Origin: an uncultured Christensenella sp.
GTDB taxonomy: Bacteria > Bacillota > Clostridia > Christensenellales > UBA3700
Reading direction: 5' to 3'
Length of the DNA stretch: 64,000 nt
Assembly: GCA_949290515.1 (NCBI GenBank)
Contig: CASERZ010000006.1
Coordinates: forward strand, 1 to 64,000
In this document: positions 222 to 38,775 of the stretch, piece by piece
How the letters are laid out: each line of letters begins with the position of its first letter
Position numbering within the stretch: the stretch's first letter is position 1
Notes under the pieces: generated by a model
What the model was told of the DNA's origin: nothing
The model's input: the letters and a program-made list of their open reading frames with translations, nothing else
The model's database searches: none
Position numbers and translations under genes: made by a program

Positions 222-276
222 TCGCGAACTCTCTTCAAAATCGCAACTCTGCACCAATCTCTGCGGCCGCACGAAG
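222..276 (+). repeat. 56-bp dispersed repeat, copy B
   Basis: Direct copy of the 127-182 repeat, 95 bp further on. It shares TCGCGAACTCTCTT, AAAATCGCAACTCTGCACC and GCACGAAG. Scattered mismatches between the copies suggest age rather than recent duplication. Confidence 0.7.
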
Positions 277-312: not shown

Positions 313-345
313 AAGAGACTTGCAACTCGCAGGTCTCTTTTCTAT
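313..345 (+). terminator. Rho-independent terminator-like hairpin
   Basis: AAGAGACTTGC (313-323) pairs with GCAGGTCTCTT (329-339), with one G-T wobble, followed by a T-rich run. No gene lies upstream inside the window, so it may end a transcript that starts before base 1. Confidence 0.55.
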
Positions 346-378
346 ATATAAATTTTAAATATATACTAATATAAAAAG

Positions 379-490
379 TAATTTATACAATTTACCCAAG
401 ACTTAAATTGTATAAATTAGTAGCGTCAACGCGTGTAAGCATACGATATGCGTGTGTATTGCGCACGTTTTGCGCGCAAGTAGAATTTTA
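379..490. repeat. Hairpin repeat family, copy 1
   Basis: A perfect 16-bp inverted repeat, TAATTTATACAATTTA (379-394) and TAAATTGTATAAATTA (404-419), encloses the 9-nt loop CCCAAGACT. A GC-rich, largely alternating purine-pyrimidine tail follows to GCGCGCAAGTAGAATTTT. The same hairpin occurs at 5245-5285, 9039-9077, 33180-33220 and 38646-38686, always between genes. Confidence 0.85.
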
Positions 491-773: not shown

Positions 774-829
774 CTTCGTGCGAGCGCGGAGAGTGGTGCA
801 GAGTTGTGATTTTGAAGAGAGTTCGCGAG
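774..829 (-). repeat. 56-bp dispersed repeat, inverted copy C
   Basis: The reverse complement reads CTCGCGAACTCTCTTCAAAA and ends CGCGCTCGCACGAAG, matching the copies at 127-182 and 222-276. It is directly followed by the variable-loop hairpin at 832-856. Confidence 0.7.
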
Positions 830-5160: not shown

Positions 5161-5244
5161 ACTTTTACAAATCTTCGGCTTATCCAGCTTCTACTTATAT
5201 ATATGCGGTCTTAATATTATATATTTATTAGTATTAATATATAG

Positions 5245-5285
5245 TTATATATACAATTTACATAAGGCTTAAATTGTATATATAA
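5245..5285. repeat. Hairpin repeat family, copy 2
   Basis: TTATATATACAATTTA (5245-5260) and TAAATTGTATATATAA (5270-5285) form a perfect 16-bp stem with loop CATAAGGCT. Compared with copy 1, bases near the stem foot differ on both arms in a matched way, so pairing is conserved. Confidence 0.85.
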
Positions 5286-6278: not shown

Positions 6279-6857
6279 ATGACAGTAGAAGAATTTAAAG
6301 AAGCGTTAAAAAAAGACAATTACATTCCGCAAGGGTCTGAGATGCATATGCTTATGCACCGCGCATCCGAAGAGGCAAGAGAAATTACCGCGCAAATCAA
6401 CGACAATTCTCACAGCGCAAAGCAATTGAGAGAGTTGTTTTCTAAGTTAACCGGCAGTCAAGTAGACGAAAGTTTTGCGCTTTTCCCGCCTTTTTACACC
6501 GATTTCGGCAAAAACATAAAACTCGGCAAGCGCGTGTTTATCAATTCGGGGTGTTGTTTTCAGGACCAAGGGGGTATAGAGATAGGCGACGATTGTCTGA
6601 TAGGACATCAGGTAGTCATAGCTACTCTCAATCACGACCTAGAGCCGTCAAGACGGGCAAGTATGATTGCCGCGCCCGTAAAAATAGGTAAAAACGTATG
6701 GATAGGGGCGCACGCAACTATTCTTGCGGGAGTCAATATAGGAGATAATGCCGTAATTGCGGCGGGAGCGGTTGTCAACCGCGACGTTGAGGCAAATACG
6801 GTCGTAGCAGGAGTGCCTGCCAAGAAAATAAAACACATCGAGGAGAAAATAAGATGA
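6279..6857 (+). CDS. Sugar O-acetyltransferase, maltose/galactoside type
   Basis: This 192-aa protein belongs to the hexapeptide-repeat acyltransferases (LacA/Maa group), which transfer acetyl from acetyl-CoA to a sugar or similar hydroxyl. An N-terminal helical cap (about residues 1-60) precedes the left-handed beta-helix with NINSG-like and IGDDCLIGHQV repeats; IGKNVWIGAHATILAG and VIAAGAVVNRDV are typical rungs, and the end GVPAKKIKHI is characteristic. The presumed catalytic His is in TLNHD. The substrate cannot be read from sequence. Its stop overlaps the next start (ATGA), so it is translationally coupled to the flavoprotein gene. Confidence 0.88.
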   Translation: MTVEEFKEALKKDNYIPQGSEMHMLMHRASEEAREITAQINDNSHSAKQLRELFSKLTGSQVDESFALFPPFYTDFGKNIKLGKRVFINSGCCFQDQGGIEIGDDCLIGHQVVIATLNHDLEPSRRASMIAAPVKIGKNVWIGAHATILAGVNIGDNAVIAAGAVVNRDVEANTVVAGVPAKKIKHIEEKIR

Positions 6858-7390
6858 AGAAAATAGTTTTAGTGTCTTCTACTTTCAGAAAACGCGGTAA
6901 TTCGGAAATTCTTGCCGACGAGTTTGAAAAGGGCGCGCTCGAGGGCGGAAACCAAGTCAAACGAATTAATCTTAGAGATATCGAGTTGAAATTCTGTATA
7001 GGCTGCCTGTCCTGTCTAAAAACGGGAAAGTGCGTGCAGAAAGATTCTGTAAACGCTTTGCTCGAAGACGTTGCACAGGCGGATATTCTCGTATTTGCTA
7101 CACCCGTATATTATTATGAAATGTCGGGACAGATGAAGACCTTTCTCGACAGGCTCAATCCTTTGTACGGTAGGGACAACGCTTTTAAAGAAGTCTATCT
7201 TATTGCAACGAGTGCAGAGGACGACAAACACGCTATGGACGGAGCGATAAAGGGTTTACAAGGCTGGATAGACTGCTTTGACGGCGTACGATTCAAAAAG
7301 GTAATATACGGTACAGGACTAGAAAAAACAGGCGAAGCGCAGGGAAGCAAAGCAGCAAAAGAGGCTTACGAAGTCGGCAAGTCAATATAA
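6854..7390 (+). CDS. NADPH-dependent FMN reductase / iron-sulfur flavoprotein family
   Basis: A 178-aa flavodoxin-fold protein. The N-terminal SSTFRKRGNSEILAD is the FMN phosphate-binding loop, and FCIGCLSCLKTGKC (about residues 46-60) is the Cys cluster common in clostridial members, which may hold an iron-sulfur cluster. ATPVYYYEMSGQMKTFLDRL is the conserved flavin-contacting segment. Likely roles are quinone, nitro or metal reduction; the true substrate is unknown. It overlaps the acetyltransferase by 4 bp and shares its promoter. Confidence 0.88.
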   Translation: MKKIVLVSSTFRKRGNSEILADEFEKGALEGGNQVKRINLRDIELKFCIGCLSCLKTGKCVQKDSVNALLEDVAQADILVFATPVYYYEMSGQMKTFLDRLNPLYGRDNAFKEVYLIATSAEDDKHAMDGAIKGLQGWIDCFDGVRFKKVIYGTGLEKTGEAQGSKAAKEAYEVGKSI

Positions 7391-7427
7391 AATTCAATCA
7401 AGAAAAATCTAAAAGAAGTAAAACAAT

Positions 7428-7754
7428 ATGTTATGTGATTTTACTTATTGCAATCCTACCAAATTGCATTTCGGACAAAACGCGCTCGACGCACTCAAAG
7501 AGGAATTGAAAAAATACGGACAGAAAGTTCTGCTTGCTTACGGCGGCGGGTCGATAAAGAAAAACGGTATTTACGACAAGGTAATGAAAGTACTTAAAGA
7601 GTGCGGCAAGACTGTAATCGAGGACGGCGGTGTTATGCCCAATCCTACATTGGAAAAACTCTGCGAGGGCGTAAGACTAGCAAGGGAAAACGTTACGTTC
7701 CGAGAAGAAAAGTCAAATCGCAGGATACAGACTGAATTCAAAGAGGTTATATGA
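7428..7754 (+). pseudogene. Truncated iron-containing alcohol dehydrogenase (N-terminal quarter)
   Basis: The first 90 or so residues match the start of the iron-dependent butanol/alcohol dehydrogenase family: FTYCNPTKLHFGQNAL, then LLAYGGGSIKKNGIYDKV and GGVMPNPTLEKLCEGVRLA. Homology stops at LARENV, just before the usual VDFILAVGGGSVID. The remaining 19 residues are unrelated and run into the next gene, overlapping its ATG. The family is normally about 390 aa, so the NAD-binding remainder and all iron ligands are missing. This looks like a deletion that joined the fragment to an upstream part of the following gene. Activity is not expected. Confidence 0.8.
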
Positions 7755-8229
7755 TTAAAATCAAATCTGTTGTGGACGAAAAAGCGCAAAAGTCGCTTGC
7801 TAAACATTCGTTGATTCTTTATGCGGTAATTCTTACAATCGGTATTGTCGGGCTTTTGGGTTATGTTATATGGAGCATTTATCCCGACAGCGAGGCGTCG
7901 AGCGTACTTTTGATATCTGCATTGCCGCTTGTCGTGGGACTGGTAATGTTGTTGTCGCTACGACAAAACGTCAAGAAAATGGCGCAAAACAATTATATCA
8001 ACGAATACGAATTCGATGAAGATTTTTCAACGTTGCCACTTATCAAAACGGAGAAGTAAAAGGCACTCACAAAGTGTATTACAACGAATTGCATAAGGTG
8101 AGAGAAAACGACGAATACATTTTTCTCTATCTCAATTCAAAGAGTGCCTATATCGTAGCGAAGTCCGACGCGACAGCAGAAGATTTAACTTCGCTCAGAC
8201 AGCTTTTGAATTTGAGAGATGACAAGTAA
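7751..8229 (+). pseudogene. Frameshifted YcxB-like membrane protein
   Basis: The first frame (7751-8059) encodes 102 aa with two hydrophobic segments (about residues 22-43 and 52-70) and ends early at FSTLPLIKTEK. Reading in the +2 frame from about 8035 gives TYQNGEVKGTHKVYYNELHK, then YIFLYLNSKSAYIV and a TAA at 8227-8229. That second part looks like the C-terminal domain of the YcxB-like family. A one-base indel near 8030-8045 would restore a single gene of about 160 aa. A sequencing or assembly error is the alternative explanation. RBS AGAGG precedes the ATG. Confidence 0.72.
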
Positions 8230-8842: not shown

Positions 8843-9173
8843 TGCTTTTCACAAGCGGAAATCTTTTTCCTTGCCTATCTATTATAATGTAAAGACTTTG
8901 TCGTGTCAATTGTTTTTTTGTAATTCGCAAAACAGTTTTTTATTGCAGTTTTGAGGTATACAAGAGGGCAGGAGTGTAAGTTGCGTGTGCTCTCACGTAC
9001 GGGTGAGTATGTGCGCTTTGCGTATGCGCGCTACCCCCTATTTATACAATTTACCCAAGACTTAAATTGTATAAATACTCTAATTATAATAAATTAATAT
9101 GCGCAATATGTGTGCGCGTAAGATGAAGAGCAGTTTTTTAATGACAGACTCAAAATGTTGTCGGTATACGTTT
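8843..9173. other. Intergenic region, hairpin repeat only
   Basis: Apart from hairpin repeat copy 3 and an imperfect GACTC...GAGTC hairpin just after the helicase loader stop (9130-9177), nothing coding was seen. Confidence 0.6.
9039..9077. repeat. Hairpin repeat family, copy 3
   Basis: TATTTATACAATTTA (9039-9053) and TAAATTGTATAAATA (9063-9077), loop CCCAAGACT. The 15-bp stem is perfect. GC-rich alternating sequence lies on its left side (8978-9032) and a shorter stretch on the right. Confidence 0.85.
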
Positions 9174-10106
9174 TCAGAGTCTTCTCAAATCTTCCCCCTG
9201 TATGTAGCCTACGCTGATAGAATAAGTTTTGTCGGCAATTTTAGAAAGCAGGGCGGAGCCGTAACGGTTGACGAGTTGTTGTCCGTCGAGTTGAGTGAGA
9301 AACATTGTTTTTTTGTTTTCGCCCAGGCGTTTTTCCAAAGTTGAGAGCAGATATTCGACAGTTACGTTTTTGTATATAGGCTCTGCGCCGAGATTGTCTA
9401 CGATAAGCATCTCGCACGCAAGTACGTAATCGTATGCCTTTCTCAAAGCCGTATCCTTTCTAGTGTGTTTGTCAAGGAATATGTTGACCAATTCGAAAGA
9501 CGTGAGATACATCACGCTTACGTTTTTGTCGAGAAGGTCATTGGCGATAGCGGCCGCGAGAGAAGTTTTGCCTACTCCGCTGGCACCGCACAACAGAAAA
9601 CAGTTGTATTTCGTAGTGTGGAATTTATTGACCACCGCTTGCATTTTTGCATACAGTTTGTTCATACCCGCCGCCTGAGGCGCGCCGTTTGTTGCAAAGG
9701 TGTTGTCTTTGAATGTAAACTCGGGCATAGGGGAAAGACTTGCGTTTTGTCTTATAAGCTTGTTGTATTCTGCGACAAGGCATTTGCAAGGCTTTTTGTC
9801 GAGATATCCCGTATCTTTGCATAGAGGACAAGTGTAGGTTGACGTAAATTTTATACCGTTGGCGTTGATATAATCTCTGATATATTTATCGGTATCCGAA
9901 AGACGCGCGCTGATTTCCTCGCAAGGTTTTTTGAGCGCGGTATTTCTCGAAACTTCGAGTTCGAGAGATTTTTTTATTTTGATTTTTTCTTTTAAATCGG
10001 GGTGAGCTGCGAGTATCTCTTCGTAATTCTTCTGAGCGCGCTCTTTTGCAATAGTACGCCTAGAGTTGAGAATGGACTCCAGCTTTTTGTCAAAGTAGTT
10101 TATCAT
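9174..10106 (-). CDS. dnaI: DnaC/DnaI-like helicase loader ATPase
   Basis: A 310-aa AAA+ ATPase of the DnaC/DnaI/IstB group, which loads the replicative helicase. It has a coiled N-terminal part, a zinc-type cluster CPLCKDTGYLDKKPCKC (about residues 93-109), Walker A CGASGVGKTS, Walker B MLIVDNLGAEP, and the arginine-rich end typical of loaders. The ATG at 10106 has CGAGG seven bases upstream; a TTG two codons earlier is possible but overlaps the stop of the preceding gene. It is coupled to the DnaD-domain gene, and the pair matches the Gram-positive DnaB-DnaI primosome partnership. IstB of transposons is unlikely because no transposase is adjacent. Confidence 0.87.
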   Translation of the reverse strand: MINYFDKKLESILNSRRTIAKERAQKNYEEILAAHPDLKEKIKIKKSLELEVSRNTALKKPCEEISARLSDTDKYIRDYINANGIKFTSTYTCPLCKDTGYLDKKPCKCLVAEYNKLIRQNASLSPMPEFTFKDNTFATNGAPQAAGMNKLYAKMQAVVNKFHTTKYNCFLLCGASGVGKTSLAAAIANDLLDKNVSVMYLTSFELVNIFLDKHTRKDTALRKAYDYVLACEMLIVDNLGAEPIYKNVTVEYLLSTLEKRLGENKKTMFLTQLDGQQLVNRYGSALLSKIADKTYSISVGYIQGEDLRRL

Positions 10107-10108
10107 AA

Positions 10109-11533
10109 TCAAACCTCGATTTCGTCAAGCTCATCGAGAGAATAGAAGTAATCCCCGAGCTGTTCTTTTGTGTATTGAGTTTGCGTTTGAGCGGGCGTCG
10201 AAGAGGAGGGAGTGACAAAACCTTTGGCTTGTTCGACGGTATATACGTTGTTGCTCTTCCATTTTGCTAGAAGATTGTTGAGTGCGGACAGCGGTTTTCC
10301 CTGACAAAGGCTTGCGCCGTATTCTATCAACTCGTAGTCGAAGTTCCATTGACTTGTCCAAACCTTGTACATATCTCTGTCTGCCATATTTACGTTACGG
10401 CTGAAGCCTGTAAGCTCGATAATCTTTTTGATAGCCATATCTCGTTGCATAAGCATAGCGAGATGCTCGTTGATTGCCTGAGTGGTAACGCAGCCTTCGG
10501 TGTAGAATTTGAGCATACTCTTGTTCATTGCCTCGAGAGTGCGGATTGACTTATTGAAACAATATTCCGCAACGAGCATAATCGCGTTTTCGTCAAAGCC
10601 TTTGCCCAGCCAGCTGCTGATATACTTCTCGACTATGTATTCTATATTCTCATAATACAGACCGAGCGTTTTGTTGACGTTGACTGCAAGCTTATACATA
10701 GCCTGCTTGTTGTTGAGATAGTTTTCCATCTCGATGACGCTCATAGCGTTATTGCGGTACAACTCGTCCAACAAGCTGTCCAGACGAGAGAAGCCTCCTT
10801 TGTTTTTGAGTGATTTTGCGGCATAGAGAATAGCGTCGAGAGCAAATCCCCAGCTGCTTGTCCACTTGATATAGAGATTTTTGTCTTCAAGGTCGACTTC
10901 GGATTTTTTGCCTACCGCCTTGCATATCATACGGATAGCTTCGTTGACGGTTTCGAGCTGTTTGATTTTTTCTTCTACGTCTTCGAGTGTGCGCACCCCT
11001 TCTTCTATCCAGTTTTTCGCGACGGCAAGAATATATTTAGTCTTTATGTTTTCTCCCTTGAGGTTTACGCAGTATCGCGCAATCATAATGAGAGTTTCGG
11101 GTTTGATTTTAGTTTCTTCGATAAAGTCGTAATATACGGTGTACTGGTTGCTGTTGGCAAAGTTTACAGAAGGGAAAAGCGATTGAAGCTGAGTGTTGAA
11201 GTCGGCATACTTTTCCTTTTTATAGTGGCGCGCGTAAGCACTTCTGATGTTTTTAAACTGCACTTCCATAGGAGATTCGGAAATAATATTGACAAGACCT
11301 TTGTCGCTGAGTTCCTTGAAGGCAGTATTCAGCTCGTCCTCTGTAAGTCCGAGAAAGTCGCACATATATGACGGGCTGTTGTCGGGAGAGAGAGTTTCCG
11401 TGCTCATAGACAGACCGAGCAGGTAAACTTTGATTTCCTGTTCGGAGCAGTCGTTCATATAATTGAGAATGAAGTTTTTGTCGAGCTGTACGGTGCTTTG
11501 CTCGTAATCCTTGCTAAAAGAACACAAACTCAT
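10109..11533 (-). CDS. dnaB: DnaB/DnaD-type replication initiation and membrane attachment protein
   Basis: A 474-aa protein with an N-terminal winged-helix region (about residues 15-95) and two DnaD-like domains. The first contains KWTSSWGFALDAILYAAKSL near residue 230, the second VWTSQWNFDYELIEYGASL near residue 400, each with the Y-K/I-x-W-T-S-x-W motif and preceded by a helical RTLE segment. In Bacillus, DnaB and DnaD remodel origin DNA and recruit the helicase-loader complex. Here it directly precedes the DnaI-like loader. AAGGAGATATTT precedes the ATG. Whether this is functionally DnaB or DnaD cannot be settled by sequence; the double DnaD domain favours DnaB. Confidence 0.85.
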   Translation of the reverse strand: MSLCSFSKDYEQSTVQLDKNFILNYMNDCSEQEIKVYLLGLSMSTETLSPDNSPSYMCDFLGLTEDELNTAFKELSDKGLVNIISESPMEVQFKNIRSAYARHYKKEKYADFNTQLQSLFPSVNFANSNQYTVYYDFIEETKIKPETLIMIARYCVNLKGENIKTKYILAVAKNWIEEGVRTLEDVEEKIKQLETVNEAIRMICKAVGKKSEVDLEDKNLYIKWTSSWGFALDAILYAAKSLKNKGGFSRLDSLLDELYRNNAMSVIEMENYLNNKQAMYKLAVNVNKTLGLYYENIEYIVEKYISSWLGKGFDENAIMLVAEYCFNKSIRTLEAMNKSMLKFYTEGCVTTQAINEHLAMLMQRDMAIKKIIELTGFSRNVNMADRDMYKVWTSQWNFDYELIEYGASLCQGKPLSALNNLLAKWKSNNVYTVEQAKGFVTPSSSTPAQTQTQYTKEQLGDYFYSLDELDEIEV

Positions 11534-33005: not shown

Positions 33006-33179
33006 GGCGAGCGCGTATAGCGACGCATATTTTGCCTTTATCTGCGACGCCCGCGCTCAGTTACATACACAAAAAGTATGCGCCTGTCGCGCTCAGTGTA
33101 ATCGAAGTGGTATTTGAAAAAATACCTGAAAATCAATAGTATAAAATTTAGCGTATAGAATATATATATTATAATATAA

Positions 33180-33290
33180 TAATTTATACAATTTACATAA
33201 GGCTTAAATTGTATAAATTAGAGGTTTCAACGCGTATGCGTATATGTGCGGGCATATATACGCACATTTTGCGCGCAAGTGGAATTTTTT
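33180..33290. repeat. Hairpin repeat family, copy 4
   Basis: TAATTTATACAATTTA (33180-33195) and TAAATTGTATAAATTA (33205-33220), loop CATAAGGCT. The tail CAACGCGTATGCG through TTTTGCGCGCAAGTGGAATT closely matches the tail of copy 1. The surrounding 33006-33420 holds no gene. Confidence 0.85.
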
Positions 33291-38645: not shown

Positions 38646-38775
38646 TAATTTATACAATTTACCCAAGACCTAAATTGTATAAATTAACTTACTGATAAAA
38701 GAAAATATATTATTTTACTTACGTGTATGCGCTCTTGCGTGCGCATACGCGTATATGCGTTGTGCGCAAGTGGTA
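38646..38775. repeat. Hairpin repeat family, copy 5
   Basis: TAATTTATACAATTTA (38646-38661) and TAAATTGTATAAATTA (38671-38686), loop CCCAAGACC. The GC-rich tail to GTGCGCAAGTGG begins about 35 bp later than in copies 1 and 4. Confidence 0.85.

Follow-up and report, generated by a model that had tools for sequence, protein, structure and literature searches.

Five copies of a perfect hairpin stand between the genes of a 64,000-nucleotide stretch of DNA (hereafter, the window) from an uncultured Christensenellaceae, and they raise the question of whether such structures work as RNA, spread as mobile repeats, or serve as sites in double-stranded DNA. An earlier note on the window had attributed them either to selection on pairing or to a mobile element, and had held that selection would be doubtful if these were the only five copies and none recurred in a relative. 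In fact, the genome carries 29 copies and three relatives carry 24 to 30, and the sites probably mark part of the chromosome for a putative DNA-binding protein.

Structure of the repeated site

The window corresponds to positions 1 to 64000 of contig C6 in a MAG of 1.72 Mb and 19 contigs, here called G000. The five hairpins had been described with perfect arms of 15 to 16 bp and with 9-nt centres of two types, CCCAAGACY and CATAAGGCT, and their coordinates, arms and centres proved right in all five window copies (Table 1); in copy 3, the 15 perfect pairs are followed by a C.C pair. A pattern scan of the whole genome returned 29 copies of the 41-bp site and none of the reversed control pattern. 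Furthermore, the site is the sole recurrent family among the long inverted repeats in the DNA read, accounting for 25 of the 90 arms of at least 11 bp in G000 against 1 for the next family, and its copies fold with z-scores of -6 to -9.6, so that chance can be excluded.

The unit is a 41-bp dyad in which two 16-bp arms (NNATNTATACAATTTA) flank an asymmetric 9-bp centre, CNYAAGNCT. Most arm columns hold 1.2 to 2 bits of information, which falls to about 0.1 just beyond the unit on one side, giving it sharp edges; the opposite side is followed by about 35 bp of AT-biased sequence, a flank that lies upstream of the centre in 73 of the 93 polar copies from four genomes. The 16-bp arms are weak dyads in their own right (AATTTATACAATTT), with 10 of 14 positions symmetric, and essentially no solo arms were found. 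Scores under a covariance model are bimodal, weak or decayed copies being absent. Within the centres, position 3 covaries with position 7 across all sites (T with G, C with A), which defines two types of ancient origin between which intermediates are rare.

The stem consists of A+T pairs save one and no T-run follows the copies, so that the G+C-rich stem and T-run of an intrinsic terminator are both missing; from the lack of a T-run, the earlier note had already concluded that this is not a simple terminator. The downstream tail ending in GCGCAAGTRG, to which attention had also been drawn, is real (at 474, 33273 and 38764), but it lies outside the conserved unit, since information is at background beyond the 41 bp save for the upstream AT bias; the motif occurs only 4 times in the 462 kb of G000 read, each time 53 to 78 bp downstream of a site.

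Table 1. Site copies and associated features in the window
Feature	Position	Strand	Remarks
Site copy 1	379..419	+	Centre CCCAAGACT; site in the corresponding intergenic region of G033 and G034
Site copy 2	5245..5285	+	Centre CATAAGGCT; A at arm position 5 matched by T on the opposite arm; orthologous site in G033 and G032
Site copy 3	9039..9077	+	Centre CCCAAGACT; arms perfect over 15 bp; G033, G032 and G034 have an orthologous site
Site copy 4	33180..33220	+	Centre CATAAGGCT; flanked by convergent aminotransferase and M1 peptidase genes; G033 and G034 have an orthologous site
Site copy 5	38646..38686	+	Centre CCCAAGACC; upstream of the S10 ribosomal protein operon; site also at this position in G033 and, with its centre inverted, in G034
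AT-rich flank, copy 1	339..378	+	Upstream relative to the orientation of the centre
AT-rich flank, copy 2	5205..5244	+	
AT-rich flank, copy 4	33140..33179	+	
AT-rich flank, copy 3	9078..9104	+	Opposite side of the centre
AT-rich flank, copy 5	38687..38722	+	Opposite side of the centre
Purine-pyrimidine tail ending GCGCAAGTAG	420..483, also 33221-33282 and 38687-38773	+	Only in a subset of copies
55-bp inverted repeat arm around copy 1	222..276, partner 774-828	+	91% complementary

Gene context and orientation

Genes were called in these MAGs with a simple script based on ORFs and codon usage. All 52 mapped sites are intergenic, with coding fractions of 0.81 (G000) and 0.78 (G034), and the intergenic placement reported for the window thus holds for every copy checked. 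Gaps between convergent genes are enriched, with 19 of 52 compared to 105 of 494 (Fisher P=0.005); convergent gene ends flank 11 of 26 sites, and promoters are not preferred. The neighbours are unrelated housekeeping and metabolic genes, including hydrogenase subunits, DnaI/DnaB-like replication genes, the S10 operon, S6, PGK, FBA, murB, veg, an ispE-like kinase, a SpoU methylase, MFS proteins and glycosidases. Site orientation is random relative to both transcription and replication and mixed relative to tandem genes; polar replication terminators were discarded as an explanation, as orientation along replication is about 12 to 17 in G000, without bias.

Some features of the window adjoin the sites. 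In G033 and G032, the stretch between the repeats at 222-276 and 774-828 has the opposite orientation to that in G000 without having moved. Between copies 2 and 3 lies a small operon (6279-8059; a hexapeptide transferase, a flavodoxin-like reductase and two more ORFs), which is mostly missing from G033 and G032 and has a partial match in a different inter-site interval of G034 (C2:320115-321386). Adjoining copy 3, positions 9174-11533 hold replication initiation genes for a DnaI/IstB-like ATPase and a DnaB_2 (DnaD/DnaB-like) protein.

Occurrence across genomes

The earlier note had suggested searching the genome and its relatives with a covariance model, and a model built from 34 site variants found strong sites in G000 and in three sister species (29 in G000, 30 in G032, 24 in G033 and about 28 in G034), the scores showing no tail of weaker copies. 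The same model, with strict filters for the other family members, found none in 13 other members of the genus and none in 29 other members of the family. Moreover, when one genome from each GTDB species (84,980) was scanned for the exact pattern, only three records matched, all uncultured Christensenellaceae MAGs, namely, BRZ_KS bin91 (G032), BRZ_DR bin29 (G033) and BRZ_MM bin39 (G034). The 41-bp site appears restricted to one subclade whose close relatives are without it.

The viral contigs scanned contained no site, and the matches in phages and plasmids were fragmentary, attributable to chance and in no case convincing. A divergent form of the motif was sought in the site-less genome G040, where 400 kb were sampled and no recurrent inverted repeat was present.

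Conservation and mode of change

Orthologous sites were paired by synteny. Their arms are 98.8% (G033), 98.4% (G032) and 95.7% (G034) identical to those of G000, while identity in the adjoining 40 bp, averaged over the two sides, is 82%, 51% and 35%, respectively; the protein of one site-adjacent gene is 98%, 82% and 68% identical in the same genomes. Since the arms are kept while the surrounding intergenic DNA has been erased, site positions and sequences have been held over this divergence, and, judging from the sequences compared, the sites are selected and not freshly mobile.

Arm positions 2, 5, 6, 10 and 12 change jointly in both arms, with 26 two-sided and no one-sided changes in interior pairs (shuffled mean, 8.1), which bears out the matched stem changes that had been seen in the window. 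Of the two causes originally offered, selection is therefore retained, acting on the dyad as indicated by the two-sided changes and by cores kept while flanks decayed. The mobile element did not stand up, as positions are conserved over species, the sites have no constant target or tag, and no tyrosine recombinase confined to site-bearing genomes was found. RNA helices usually evolve via G-U pairs, and no interior G-U pair was found among the arm changes. A DNA dyad, or correction templated by the hairpin, would thus fit better than RNA. Together with an orientation independent of transcription and replication, the joint changes point to the DNA level.

The centre behaves differently from the arms. 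At several positions of G034, it is inverted or switched in type while the AT-rich flank has not moved (G000 and G034 pairs C10:62863/C6:54047, C13:14213/C2:243789 and C6:38646/C2:190845), so that orientation and centre type seem nearly neutral, whereas position and arms do not. Five of the sites on C5 of G000 (10-112 kb) are without a counterpart in G034, and G034 in turn has, on its contig C3, two sites with arms of the ATAATTTA type in a stretch that lacks counterparts in G000; the domain is thus not fixed in detail.

Confinement to part of the chromosome

All 29 sites of G000 lie on six contigs covering about 465 of 1720 kb (about 27%), for which the chance under uniform placement is about 3e-17. 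They fill C5, C6, C10, C13, the 14-69 kb part of C3 and the initial 0.5 kb of C12, the start of which adjoins C6 as judged by site spacing, and they are absent from the other contigs; clustering is similar in G032, G033 and G034. Other intergenic repeats of the genus spread over all large contigs. A different intergenic repeat, at about 1950-2400 of C5 in G000, has dozens of matches, on C1, C3, C4 and C10 of G033 among others; these are scattered over many contigs in both G033 and G032, in contrast to the confinement of the 41-bp sites.

Taking oriC at dnaA, GC skew in G034 switches at about 43 kb of C7 and switches back near C1:100 kb, the terminus, where the single Xer gene lies (98 kb) and sites are absent. 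The distance in G033 from dnaA (C2:8.3 kb) to the first site (C2:166.7 kb) places the start of a first block of sites about 158 kb from the origin. This block (C3, C13 and C6) occupies about 220 to 250 kb on one arm, by synteny with contig C2 of G034; a second block (C5 and C10) is of similar length, its C5 end being origin-side by skew. There are at least two blocks, whose chromosomal order the assemblies do not fix. The C10 and C6 segments are adjacent in G040, which, like the block lengths, is only compatible with the second block being on the other arm; as G040 is rearranged, contig overlap with it gives no link of this block to oriC.

Proposed function and alternative explanations

It is possible to hypothesize that the hairpins are binding sites in double-stranded DNA and neither RNA structures nor mobile repeats. 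About 29 sites would tag a fixed part of the chromosome, of some 465 kb, from intergenic positions that spare the genes. Their binder, a sequence-specific protein, would organise or position the tagged part, as MatP does on matS and RefZ on RBMs. As the arm itself is a weak dyad, each 41-bp site could accommodate two protein dimers. A restricted, position-conserved and orientation-indifferent array of intergenic dyads is what would be expected of the sites of a chromosome-organising protein. The sites themselves, their confined placement, their conservation and the indifference of their orientation are observed, whereas protein binding, a role in folding, segregation or septum placement, and the identity of the candidate binder discussed below are inferred. 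That the sites bind a chromosome-domain protein, working like matS/MatP or RBM/RefZ as a member of neither family, is in our judgement about evenly balanced. Among the points against it, the site is longer than the 13-bp matS and its asymmetric centre is unexplained.

Among the alternatives, a REP- or MITE-like non-autonomous repeat, which would have multiplied in an ancestor shared by the four species and would persist as intergenic palindromes whose arms are kept alike by hairpin-mediated copying, could account for the extragenic, palindromic character of the sites, their enrichment in convergent gaps and the longer flanks common to a few copies. The centre type, differing from G034 at 9 of the 11 orthologous positions with both sides retained, resembles conversion between copies, and template switching in hairpins could yield two-sided changes without selection. 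Such a repeat would have left just 24 to 30 copies per genome with none decayed, confined to about 27% of the chromosome at positions kept across species at 68% protein identity, although the other intergenic repeats of the genus do spread over all large contigs; moreover, GTAG or CGTC tags are lacking as a feature of the sites, any such tag within 8 nt occurring in 6 of 54 copies. We consider this origin unlikely. Operators of a regulator with a large regulon are less probable still, even though the site is a dyad in DNA and several neighbours belong to sugar metabolism (PGK, FBA, pfkB, an FGGY kinase, MFS, GH2 and GH43): 11 of 26 sites fall between convergent gene ends with no preference for promoters, S10, S6, murB, veg and SpoU are also neighbours, the links between sites and genes differ between species, and a regulon would not keep to one chromosome part.

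The plan of arms around an asymmetric core recalls the targets of site-specific recombinases, such as loxP or FRT, and centres do invert in place, as does the segment between two sites at C3:24.1-26.7 kb, which is inverted in G032 and G034 compared to G000 and G033. Against such targets, the lone tyrosine recombinase of G033 and G034 is the genus-wide Xer and none confined to site-bearing genomes was found, breakpoints fall at sites in 8 of 25 cases (P=0.03 by gap count and 0.29 by gap length), and the inversion at copy 1 is explained by the separate 55-bp inverted repeat, so that we hold this explanation to be very improbable. The C3 segment itself encodes veg, an aldo/keto reductase and a 499-aa ORF that has no family assignment. 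Equally hard to credit is a transcribed RNA hairpin with a role in 3' processing, stabilisation or a terminator-like function. The site folds alone at -11.5 kcal/mol as RNA and is often close to gene ends; yet the absence of a T-run and of interior G-U pairs among the arm changes, the mixed orientation to tandem genes and the lack of an Rfam match argue against it, and chromosomal confinement would be left unexplained.

Candidate binding proteins

If the sites are bound by a chromosome-domain protein, a weak candidate is a TetR-family protein encoded at C3:77714-78292 of G000, on the origin side of the first block and about 9 kb from its outermost site. Its group is present in all four site-bearing genomes (C3 of G000, C2 of G033, C4 of G032 and C2 of G034) with 69 to 96% identity. 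The TetR hits compared from the site-less genomes G027, G030, G039 and G040, which for G030 and G040 were all but a few, include no ortholog; the best site-less matches belong to other groups, with about 32% identity or less over their length. No site lies at the promoter of the candidate. Many genes share this subclade-only distribution, including the site-adjacent gene tested, so that the co-occurrence is a lead only.

Other candidates were set aside. The TetR protein beside twin sites at 30 kb of C13 is genus-wide and hence not specific to site-bearing genomes. This TetR_C_8 regulator (near 30.6 kb on the minus strand of C13 in G000 and near 257.3 kb of C2 in G034) shows 97% identity between these two genomes and 93% in site-less relatives, much more than the other proteins compared. 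RacA was rejected, as no MerR_1 protein (PF13411) occurs in the eight genomes scanned, and so was a ParB paralogue, since the site-bearing genomes, like most site-less relatives, have one ParB each, encoded near dnaA.

All five genomes checked contain Spo0A, which makes a role in sporulation possible. A fuller scheme may be tentatively drawn, which in all its parts we consider doubtful: a macrodomain-marking system born in one genus of gut Firmicutes of spore-former lineage, with about 29 sites, each for paired dimers, in two blocks that may lie on separate arms about 155 to 420 kb from oriC, and whose binder, perhaps the domain-edge TetR, would set which part is folded, tethered or trapped at the polar septum.

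Comparison with known systems

To our knowledge, site-specific chromosome-domain systems are known from few bacteria. The present site is long, almost invariant and sharply confined, and its site-less close relatives offer a natural comparison, with and without sites, for the origin of a domain system; domain-confined sites can thus be detected in uncultured bacteria from sequence alone.

REP elements are extragenic palindromes of 20 to 40 bp (PMC3733652), and the REP/RAYT system resembles our sites in this respect; however, the latter are without the GTAG/CGTC tag, number fewer than 100 copies and are confined to one chromosome part. Noc sites and parS/ParB share with them the form of dispersed chromosomal dyads of an architectural protein, whereas site-bearing genomes have no extra ParB-family protein. 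The ram sites of RacA are dense in the origin-side part of the chromosome (PMC6593407), as are the sites described here, but the MerR-type RacA is absent from the eight genomes scanned. In the Ter macrodomain of E. coli, matS occurs in 23 copies over 800 kb (PMC3330122), and the likeness lies in 20 to 30 palindromic sites confined to one chromosome part; different from matS/MatP, the unit is 41 bp of other sequence instead of 13 bp, the phylum is another, and the terminus (skew switch, with Xer in G034) is without sites, the confinement being elsewhere. RBMs are near-palindromic sites on both chromosome arms, with positions conserved over Bacillus, and are bound by RefZ, a TetR protein, as a pair of dimers (PMC6657595). 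Here there are 29 sites compared to five in B. subtilis, of different sequence, and they form two blocks, the arm of the second not being fixed by contig order; one TetR orthogroup co-occurs with them and would be a candidate binder. Like the RBMs, they keep their positions relative to oriC, with orthologous sites in four species, and Spo0A is present.
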